Below, piece by piece: positions 6,669-44,559 of a stretch of 64,000 nt of DNA (its first letter is position 1; each line of letters opens with the position of its first letter). The position numbers and the translations under genes were made by a program. The notes under the pieces were generated by a model. That model saw nothing but the letters and a program-made list of their open reading frames with translations, was not told the DNA's origin and searched no databases. This DNA is from Sulfurisphaera javensis (GTDB lineage Archaea > Thermoproteota > Thermoprotei_A > Sulfolobales > Sulfolobaceae): positions 372,001 through 436,000 of the forward strand of contig NZ_AP031322.1 of NCBI RefSeq assembly GCF_041154675.1, read 5' to 3'.

Positions 6669-6884
6669 TCAGATCTAATTATAATTTATTCTTGTCATTT
6701 CTATATTTTTCTCCCCTATAAATTGTAGCTATAACATATTTAAAATAACTAACTACACTCATTCTCTTGGGCTTTAAATCACTAACATCATTTTTACTAT
6801 TCTACAAGATTAAGCTCAGATTAATACTATAGGACTATAAAATATTGCCCTTTAACAATGAGTAACATATGTAAAAATTATAGG

Positions 6885-6981
6885 CGCCGGCGGCGGGATT
6901 TGAACCCGCGCGGGGACGGACCCCAGCGGCTGCCCGCCCTTAATTAGCAGGCCGCCGCCCTACCAGCTAGGCCACGCCGGC
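6885..6981 (-). tRNA. tRNA-Ser (GCT anticodon), 13-nt intron
   Basis: The minus strand folds as a class II tRNA. It has acceptor GCCGGCG/CGCCGGC, discriminator G, a D stem GCCT/GGGC, a long variable arm GGGG-TCCG-CCCC, and T stem GCGGG/CCCGC with loop TTCAAAT. The anticodon stem GCGGC pairs with GCCGC only after removing 13 bases (6932..6944) at the canonical position 37/38; the loop then reads CTGCTAA with anticodon GCT. CCA is not encoded. The mature length is 84 nt. Its TATA box lies at about 7001..7012. Confidence 0.93.
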
Positions 6982-7016: not shown

Positions 7017-7322
7017 GGGTCGGCCCCCTTATACCATGACCCTTTCCTCCCCAGATTTACCTCGGCCCTTCTCACACCGGTGACCGGTGAACGCGGACGG
7101 CCGGACACGGTTGCTCCCTTCCGGACCTGGCCGATTCCTCCGGTTGGCGTGATATCCCCTCTCCCTCCAGAGAGGAGATTCACGCCCGTCTCGCCCCACC
7201 GGGCGGTGCTCATCGTTAGACCGAGATCTGAAGGAGGTAGGTATCATGGTATAAGGGTTACTGGTGCCCCTTTACGCCATGAGGTTACAGGAGGTGGCGA
7301 ACCTCCCCACCCTACCCGACCC
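7017..7322 (-). ncRNA. ffs: Signal recognition particle RNA (7S RNA)
   Basis: The GC-rich block contains, on the minus strand, the helix 8 signature AGGTCCGGAAGGGAGCAACC, the SRP54-binding loop. The ends pair with each other: GGGTCGG at 7322 and CCGACCC at 7017 form helix 1 typical of archaeal SRP RNA. A second long pairing, near CTTATACCATGATACC and GGTCATGGTATAAG, matches helix 5. Total 306 nt, the usual archaeal size. It guides membrane and secreted proteins to the translocon with SRP19 and SRP54. The open frames seen here are shadows of the RNA. Confidence 0.95.
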
Positions 7323-31751: not shown

Positions 31752-31882
31752 GGGCCCGTAGCTCAGCCAGGTAGAGTGCCGGGCTCCAGCTTTTCATCGG
31801 GTCTGCTGACCCCATTTGGGGGATGAGTTAAAGCTGGAAAGGAGAGACCCGGTGGTCCGGGGTTCAAGTCCCCGCGGGCCCA
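31752..31882 (+). tRNA. tRNA-Trp (CCA anticodon), 57-nt intron
   Basis: Acceptor GGGCCCG/CGGGCCC, discriminator A, D stem GCTC/GAGT, T stem CGGGG/CCCCG with loop TTCAAGT. The anticodon stem CCGGG pairs with CCCGG after removal of 57 bases (31790..31846) at position 37/38. A textbook bulge-helix-bulge supports this: bulge AGC, 4-bp helix CTCC/GGAG, bulge AGA. The mature tRNA is 74 nt, without encoded CCA. The intron carries sequence resembling box D' (CTGA, 31806..31809) and box C' (GATGAG, 31822..31827). Confidence 0.95.
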
Positions 31883-43666: not shown

Positions 43667-44092
43667 ATGAAGGGAACAAAAACCGAAATGGGATTAAAAG
43701 AATTATTCTTAGCTAATAGTGAAGATCATCTTTTCCTATACTTTTTATCTGAAAAACTTGAAGAACTTAATAAAAAAGAAGAAGCGAAAATGATAAGAGA
43801 TAAGGCCTTAGTTGAATTAGGTCATGCAAAGGGAATTTTTGAGAAAATGAACAAGTATTTAGGAACTGAATATTTGCAAAACTGGCTAAATGAGTTAGAA
43901 AATACAGAAGCTAAAGAAATTAAAGAAAAATTTGCATATACAGCTACGCAATATATGTTAAGTAAAATACTTTCAGAAAAAGTAACAGACGAAAAAGTTA
44001 AACAAGAGTTATCAGCTAAGGCTAGTCAAAAATATAATGAAGCTAAACAATGGTTTGAAGAATTGTTAAAGAGTGGATCTGAATTAATGTAA
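43667..44092 (+). CDS. Rubrerythrin-like (ferritin-like fold) protein, diverged
   Basis: 141 helical residues. The opening KGTKTEMGLKELFLANSEDH followed by LFLYF parallels rubrerythrin/sulerythrin starts, and ALVELGHAKGIFEKM holds the E50-x2-H53 metal motif, with E19 as the partner Glu. In the second helix pair the equivalent ExxH is not intact (NEAKQWF), so only half of a di-iron site remains. It may bind one metal or act as a partner subunit. A TATA-like run lies at 43636..43646. The next gene, 87 bases away, is also ferritin-like. Confidence 0.78.
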   Translation: MKGTKTEMGLKELFLANSEDHLFLYFLSEKLEELNKKEEAKMIRDKALVELGHAKGIFEKMNKYLGTEYLQNWLNELENTEAKEIKEKFAYTATQYMLSKILSEKVTDEKVKQELSAKASQKYNEAKQWFEELLKSGSELM

Positions 44093-44133
44093 GAAAAAAT
44101 ATTTTTAAATATAAACGTAAATGAATAAACAAA

Positions 44134-44144
44134 TCTTTATATAT
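44134..44144 (+). promoter_or_regulatory. TATA box for the tandem half-rubrerythrin gene
   Basis: CTTTATATATT is a near-ideal archaeal TATA element, about 40 bases before the ATG at 44179. The leader contains a GGGG run (44167..44170). The gene is likely expressed independently of its upstream neighbour. Confidence 0.5.
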
Positions 44145-44178
44145 TCAGAGAGAACATATTTAGTAGGGGGTTTTCCAT

Positions 44179-44559
44179 ATGGCCCTCGTAGAAATAAAAC
44201 AAGTTCTAAATAAATTTGTAGAAAAGGAAAGTGAAGAACACGTAAGTACATATAATAATGTTGCCTTAACAGCAAAAGCAGAAGGATATGCAGACATAGA
44301 AGCAATGCTATGCGCATACGCTGAAGAAGAGAAAAACATAGCTGAAACAGCTAAAAAAGTACTCGAATTACTATCTGTAAAAGATGTATTAAGCAAATTT
44401 GCTGAGAAAGAAAGTGCTGAGCATGTTGCAACTTATAATAATGTTGCCTTAACAGCAAAAGCAGAAGGATATGCAGACATAGAAGCAATGCTATGCGCAT
44501 ACGCTGAACAAGAAGCTGAGATCGCAAAAACCGCTAAGAAAGTAGCGAGCGCACTTTAA
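44179..44559 (+). CDS. Tandem half-rubrerythrin protein: two nearly identical helical hairpins
   Basis: 126 residues made of two units, 1-65 and 66-126. Each has the pattern KESxEHVxTYNNVALTAKAE, then GYADIEAMLCAYAExE, the spacing of a rubrerythrin helix pair. A 25-residue block is identical in both units and its DNA is identical too. The rubrerythrin Glu ligands are kept (E17, E51, E78, E112), but the His of each ExxH is Ile (I54, I115). Each unit has one Cys (C45, C106). Two hairpins would make a complete four-helix bundle. The family call is from pattern; metal binding is unproven. Confidence 0.8.
   Translation: MALVEIKQVLNKFVEKESEEHVSTYNNVALTAKAEGYADIEAMLCAYAEEEKNIAETAKKVLELLSVKDVLSKFAEKESAEHVATYNNVALTAKAEGYADIEAMLCAYAEQEAEIAKTAKKVASAL
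44251..44508 (+). repeat. 75-bp exact direct repeat (44251..44325 and 44434..44508)
   Basis: The two 75-base blocks are identical at every base, 183 bases (61 codons) apart, inside the tandem half-rubrerythrin gene. Sequence just outside the blocks still aligns but has many differences, both silent and amino acid changing. Purifying selection on protein alone would not preserve silent positions, so recent duplication or gene conversion is implied. Confidence 0.97.

Follow-up and report, generated by a model that had tools for sequence, protein, structure and literature searches.

The window analysed here, a 64,000-nucleotide stretch of the Sulfurisphaera javensis genome (NZ_AP031322.1, positions 372,001 to 436,000), contains two neighbouring genes for helical-hairpin proteins, an upstream neighbour (UP) and a repeat protein (REP). 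Their features, in window coordinates, are as follows.

43667–44092, + strand: UP, 141 aa, with a rubrerythrin-type first hairpin containing ExxH (E50, H53) and a second hairpin
43670–43864, + strand: first-hairpin module of UP (module N)
43883–44089, + strand: second hairpin of UP, without a metal-ligand motif (from profile comparison)
44093–44178, + strand: UP–REP spacer, 86 bp, strongly conserved in four species of the genus
44179–44559, + strand: REP, 126 aa, two tandem hairpin units (from reading of the open frame)
44194–44376, + strand: unit 1 of REP, residues 6–66; helix A to residue 34, turn 35–37, helix B from 38; key residues E17, E20, H21, Y25, E41, C45, E51, I54
44251–44325, + strand: 75-bp block, unit 1 copy, the same as the unit 2 copy; gene-conversion tract
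44377–44556, + strand: unit 2 of REP, residues 67–126; key residues E78, E81, H82, Y86, E102, C106, E112, I115
44434–44508, + strand: 75-bp block, unit 2 copy, the same as the unit 1 copy

The units of REP are 61-residue hairpins encoded by a direct repeat (44195–44361 and 44378–44544; spacing 183 nt) with 81% identity over 167 nt. Within the 75-nt block, both copies use the same codon at 25 of 25 positions, with no silent difference, while outside it silent differences were found in 14 of the 22 codons that specify the same residue (Fisher p = 9e-7 against the block). When the 31 differences were placed at random 200,000 times, a difference-free run of 75 nt never arose. Taken together, these comparisons show that the repeat is real and not a product of chance. 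An earlier sequence-only reading of this DNA had described two near-identical hairpins in a 126-residue protein, a shared 75-bp block identical even at silent sites, and the change of both ExxH histidines to isoleucine (I54, I115) with four glutamates retained (E17, E51, E78, E112); each of these observations was reproduced.

The spacer contains a TATA-like element, TTTATATA, at 44136–44143, from which REP is read as probably having its own promoter. An invariant stretch upstream of this element, AAATATAAACGTAAAT, is a candidate regulator site. Elsewhere in the window, a 131-nt Rfam tRNA match at 31752–31882 that received no ARAGORN call is probably an intron-containing tRNA. ARAGORN called a tRNA-Ile with anticodon AAT at 6883–6981, adjoining the SRP RNA at 7017–7322; such a tRNA is unusual in archaea, and the call is likely a misread intron-containing tRNA.

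When a single-unit profile was compared with all PDB chains, the best matches were sulerythrin and other rubrerythrins (sulerythrin residues 92–140, whole-sequence E = 6.4e-4), while a two-unit profile reached E = 6.4e-5 against solved rubrerythrins. Sulerythrin of Sulfurisphaera tokodaii, a rubrerythrin without the rubredoxin domain (PDB 1j30, 7o8a), was the best sequence match of the unit. The first-hairpin profile matched rubrerythrin residues 5–64, and the first hairpin followed by a unit, which form one protein in other Sulfolobaceae, aligned in that order with rubrerythrin from end to end (E = 2.9e-6). By profile comparison, the REP unit is thus homologous to the second helix pair of rubrerythrin. 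The proposal that REP is a duplicated half of a rubrerythrin-like protein therefore stood, but the half in question is the second helix pair and not, as first suggested, the first.

REP scored below the curated cut-offs of Pfam PF02915 (15.9 bits; cut-off 22.8) and NCBIfam NF045767 (30.3 bits; cut-off 200), and a one-unit fused relative likewise did not reach them (21.9 and 21.6 bits in the Pfam and NCBIfam comparisons). Weak Pfam matches of REP to unrelated families were taken as chance. The protein ends after unit 2, with no C-terminal rubredoxin domain, and an ordinary rubrerythrin is also encoded in the same genome. Because the first hairpin and the unit exist as a fusion that aligns end to end with rubrerythrin, the most fitting reading of two-unit REP is that a rubrerythrin-like protein already existed and one of its halves was amplified afterwards. 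Module N of UP is the first hairpin found fused to units in Metallosphaera, Saccharolobus, Aramenus and others. The second hairpin of UP was considered as a degenerate REP unit, and this was dropped since by profile its likeness is to the first hairpin of UP itself (P = 4.6e-5) and not to the REP unit. From this single profile comparison, UP may also be a doubled hairpin of independent origin, with the ligand motifs lost from its second copy.

When Sulfolobales genomes were searched, the REP unit was detected in 30 of 31 Sulfolobaceae genomes, a set that we take to include S. tokodaii, S. acidocaldarius, Metallosphaera and others; the remaining genome is a 71% complete assembly in which the first-hairpin gene is present. 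Outside Sulfolobaceae, searches at the level of class, phylum and relatives returned ordinary rubrerythrins or chance matches only. No relatives were found in the plasmids or viral contigs searched, and a strict-pattern scan of genome contigs recovered fused-type Sulfolobaceae only. By position, the orthologues of REP are Saci_0054 and, within SSO2253, the C-terminal part, and UP is the orthologue of Saci_0055, since herA is Saci_0053/SSO2251 (PMC2246294). Two earlier reports list Saci_0054 and Saci_0055 as common to Thermoplasmata (PMC1852104) and mention an SSO2253 homologue in Picrophilus torridus, a member of Thermoplasmata (PMC1995220).

Reading of the open frames revealed two architectures, a split type (UP gene and stand-alone REP) and a fused type (first hairpin followed by units). 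Split loci encode one unit (L057), two units (the window and L032–L039) or three units (L048, L058). Fused loci encode one unit (L059, L060), two units (L041, L044, L046, L047, L049–L055), three units (L042, L043, L045, L056) or four units (L040). While the sequence-only reading had asked whether homologues carry one unit or two, the number across Sulfolobaceae is therefore 1, 2, 3 or 4.

HerA–Mre11–Rad50 adjoins the gene in 28 of the 30 loci, and the other flank usually carries Bcp peroxiredoxin, NnrDE and PEP carboxylase (the neighbour check covered peroxiredoxin, NnrDE, HerA, Mre11 and Rad50). This common gene order identifies a single orthologous locus. No HerA was present inside the 12 kb examined at L039 and L056, and in the three-unit genus (L048, L058) UP lies on the opposite strand. 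In a tree of HerA, Mre11 and NnrDE, in which deep nodes were weakly supported, the split form did not make up one clean clade. HerA appeared as two overlapping open frames at L048:4360-5933 and L060:4326-5860, possibly through frameshift or sequencing error, and Rad50 did so in one Saccharolobus genome (L054:641-3237).

Silent sites were compared within and between genes over a unit core of 150 nt. In six Metallosphaera species, 17 of 17 within-gene pairs of cores were identical, with 0 silent differences in 850 comparisons, whereas cores differed between species at 598 of 1682 (36%); the first hairpin of the same genes showed 43% silent difference between species. Unit number in Metallosphaera still varies (2, 3 or 4). 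Within-gene silent differences were likewise absent in genus g6 (L048, L058; 0 of 300, against 24% between species), genus g7 (L035, L036; 0 of 97, against 20%) and HS-7 (L056; 0 of 146). Within-gene silent difference in Sulfurisphaera (25%) and Saccharolobus (21%) was close to the between-species level; in these two genera, homogenisation is therefore patchy.

The two units are old in the window's own genus, as shown by the resemblance of unit 1 to its counterpart in the sister species. The central identical tract nevertheless differs from species to species (75, 55, 55 and 87 nt) and carries private silent variants common to both copies. At L034 the tract has brought QEEDIART of unit 2 into unit 1, and in Saccharolobus L050 an EQEQHV patch occupies both units while close relatives have EDMQHI in the second. 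These patterns at silent sites indicate that the units are kept alike by intragenic gene conversion together with unit gain and loss, beyond a merely recent duplication. Of the two explanations originally offered for the identical block, recent duplication or gene conversion, the private tracts and the Metallosphaera comparison support the latter, and the concerted, species-specific differences that it would entail were found.

The known ligands of sulerythrin are E20, E53, H56, E92, E95, E126 and H129, with Y27 and Y100 nearby (PMC12833474). In the alignment of the REP unit with sulerythrin, E17 corresponds to E92, E20 to E95, Y25 to Y100, E51 to E126 and I54 to H129. Helical-wheel angles of E17, E20, H21, Y25, E51 and I54 of unit 1 deviated by no more than 13 degrees from the angles of sulerythrin E92, E95, W96, Y100, E126 and H129 (the sulerythrin string used is nearly identical to the orthologue in this genome). 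The two proteins share the same glutamates, the positions of the second-shell Glu and Tyr, and a spacing of 34 between the helix A and helix B glutamates, which holds in every unit and for E92–E126. While the ligand glutamates thus keep rubrerythrin spacing on both helices, ExxI replaces ExxH in all units, and the pair of ExxH motifs of rubrerythrins is absent. Sulerythrin has two different hairpins per chain, a 39-residue E53–E92 spacing and two ExxH histidine ligands, whereas REP repeats one hairpin type at a spacing of 21–27 residues, with ExxI and a new histidine on helix A.

This histidine (H21, H82) lies four residues after the first glutamate of each unit, and E17, H21, Y25, C45 and E51 are invariant in all units aligned. 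H21 lies one turn from E17 and faces the core, where sulerythrin has W96. With one invariant histidine per unit, two units offer four glutamates and two histidines, the count of the canonical site. By sequence, these core-facing histidines do not support a symmetric all-carboxylate site as the sequence-only reading had envisaged. Assignment of H21 as a metal ligand is a geometric guess; if confirmed, the histidine would have changed helices, from B to A, an unusual way of rewiring a 2-His/4-carboxylate site.

AlphaFold modelling of REP (15 rows) placed helices at residues 2–34, 38–95 and 99–125, with the hairpins joined by one 58-residue helix and the monomer forming an open Z of three helices. 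Since confidence was modest (pLDDT 73, pTM 0.47; five models spanning 42–73), the straight linker between hairpins is suggestive only. Foldseek ranked rubrerythrins and sulerythrin first, but at an rmsd of about 18 Å over the whole chain because the two hairpins are placed differently. With the hairpins drawn as joined by one straight helix, the proposed single-chain four-helix bundle is doubtful. A four-hairpin relative modelled for i/i+2 pairing gave low confidence (pLDDT 58). Ligand glutamates of successive hairpins are 27 residues apart in the window protein and 21–28 residues apart across the family (in fused genes, 21–22 between units and 27–28 from first hairpin to first unit). The crossover of the ferritin topology requires extra residues, as in the longer linker of sulerythrin, so by our own geometric estimate pairing within one chain in that topology looks impossible. 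Sulerythrin is a domain-swapped dimer (PMC12833474, PMC12851003), and bundles of REP probably also form by domain swapping.

These observations led to a model, to which we assign about an even chance of being correct, in which REP is an amplified second hairpin that forms swapped or UP-paired bundles with sites of four glutamates and two histidines and acts in metal or peroxide stress. The second hairpin of a rubrerythrin-like ancestor would have been amplified in tandem, each unit supplying half of a four-helix bundle. The continuous joining helix would stop neighbouring hairpins from folding back on each other in ferritin topology, and the partner of each hairpin would be either the first hairpin of UP or a hairpin of another chain, the latter giving a domain-swapped antiparallel homodimer. 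A pair of units would then hold one symmetric di-metal site, its histidine ligands now lying on helix A (ExxxH) and no longer on helix B, where ExxH has become ExxI. Because an antiparallel dimer would satisfy any hairpin count, odd or even, unit number would be free to vary, and odd numbers (1 and 3) do occur in Sulfolobaceae. Identical units would be favoured because unit i must fit unit n+1-i, and intragenic gene conversion and unequal exchange would keep them alike.

A known protein with a site shared between hairpins is the encapsulated ferritin EncFtn, a single-hairpin protein whose dimer forms a symmetric di-iron site from Glu32, Glu62 and His65 of two chains, and which was put forward as a model of how hairpin duplication and fusion gave rise to the four-helix ferritin fold (PMC5012862). 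The likeness is drawn from its description: EncFtn is a two-helix protein that keeps Glu and ExxH, forms decamers inside encapsulin and has no tandem units, whereas REP has ExxI.

With regard to function, SSO2253 of S. solfataricus was detected only in nickel-treated cells, together with the neighbouring Bcp3 peroxiredoxin (PMC1995220). On this basis, which is one proteomic table on a fused orthologue, a role in metal and/or peroxide stress is likely, and REP would most likely bind a transition metal and/or reduce peroxide under metal or oxidative stress. The DNA-repair neighbours may reflect a common damage response or mere adjacency.

The partnership with UP could instead be the whole of the mechanism, with REP working as a heteromer whose units pair with UP hairpins and rebuild in trans the bundle that is fused elsewhere. 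This is possible, though it ranks below the broader model. UP and REP are adjacent and co-occur in split-type genomes, the same first hairpin is directly fused to units in other genera, and the ExxH of UP's first hairpin with the Glu..Glu of the unit would restore the canonical order; the neighbouring protein, suggested early on as a structural partner, is thus a plausible one. However, the opposite-strand UP (L048, L058) and the TATA-like element of REP itself make co-expression not obvious, UP lacks a ligand motif in its second hairpin, and hairpin numbers mismatch (2 in UP, 1–3 in REP). In addition, module N has Asn at the position of rubrerythrin Glu20, so a metal site between N and a unit would be incomplete.

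It is unlikely that REP is a compact, single-chain, all-antiparallel (up-down-up-down) four-helix bundle in which a tight turn replaces the continuous helix drawn by AlphaFold. While the 27-residue linker would fit two half helices and a short turn, and the confidence of the model is limited, the window linker contains no Gly or Pro, the predicted helix is continuous from residue 38 to 95, and the linkers between units of fused genes are still shorter (21–22 residues). Such a topology would also break the two-fold geometry of a ferritin-type site, yet the site residues are invariant, and relatives with one or three units could not complete such bundles alone.

Less probable by a good margin is a structural or membrane-remodelling coiled coil without metal, resembling the hairpin and long helix of PspA and ESCRT-III proteins. 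VIA-align gave Z of about 10 for PspA, VIPP1 and CHMP1B/IST1 hairpins, equal to that for sulerythrin, but by the program's own warning helical models commonly give Z below about 13, sequence matches go to rubrerythrin, and a plain coiled coil would not need invariant core-facing Glu and His. The PspA/ESCRT-III matches were treated as common helical geometry.

Finally, that REP is a relic or replay of the founding duplication behind the ferritin-like fold, as its two near-identical hairpins and symmetric Glu set had first suggested, is highly improbable, since the unit is specifically the second rubrerythrin hairpin, its partner first hairpin belongs to the same locus family and is fused to it in order in relatives, the family was found only in Sulfolobaceae among the phylum genomes searched, and the same genome encodes an ordinary rubrerythrin.

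The hairpin duplication step in ferritin-like proteins is normally visible only as faint internal symmetry. Symerythrin (PDB 3qhb, 3sid), a weak sequence match of REP (E about 0.4–0.5), is ferritin-like, and its two hairpins are strongly symmetric to each other; its halves have diverged and form one bundle with canonical ligands, which sets it apart from a recent tandem array. The ferritin-like character of the present locus is already known: for SSO2253, the orthologue at the same locus (a fused form with first hairpin and two units, judged from its genus), a ferritin-like fold and weak rubrerythrin similarity were predicted in 2007, and the available portion of that report describes neither repeat structure, unit-number variation nor gene conversion (PMC1995220). 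The variable hairpin array, its homogenisation, the second-hairpin origin and the relocated invariant histidine were not found in the literature searched.

Returning to the preferred model of amplified second hairpins, its furthest extension would be a modular system in which one to four near-identical half-bundles are strung on continuous helices and assemble as antiparallel dimers, each further unit adding one di-metal bundle, with the histidine on helix A in place of helix B and the units kept interchangeable by gene conversion. We put this forward tentatively and regard it as doubtful in full; if true, the count of metal sites would be a trait able to evolve through copy number.

The behaviour of the family as a whole is more interesting than the single gene. 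In this single archaeal family, a hairpin of rubrerythrin is gaining and losing copies, joining with or separating from its partner, and being kept uniform among its copies. Sulfolobaceae are cultured and genetically tractable, which opens hairpin number, domain swapping and metal-site assembly to experiment, and the lineage illustrates how a metal protein of four helices can be built up one hairpin at a time.
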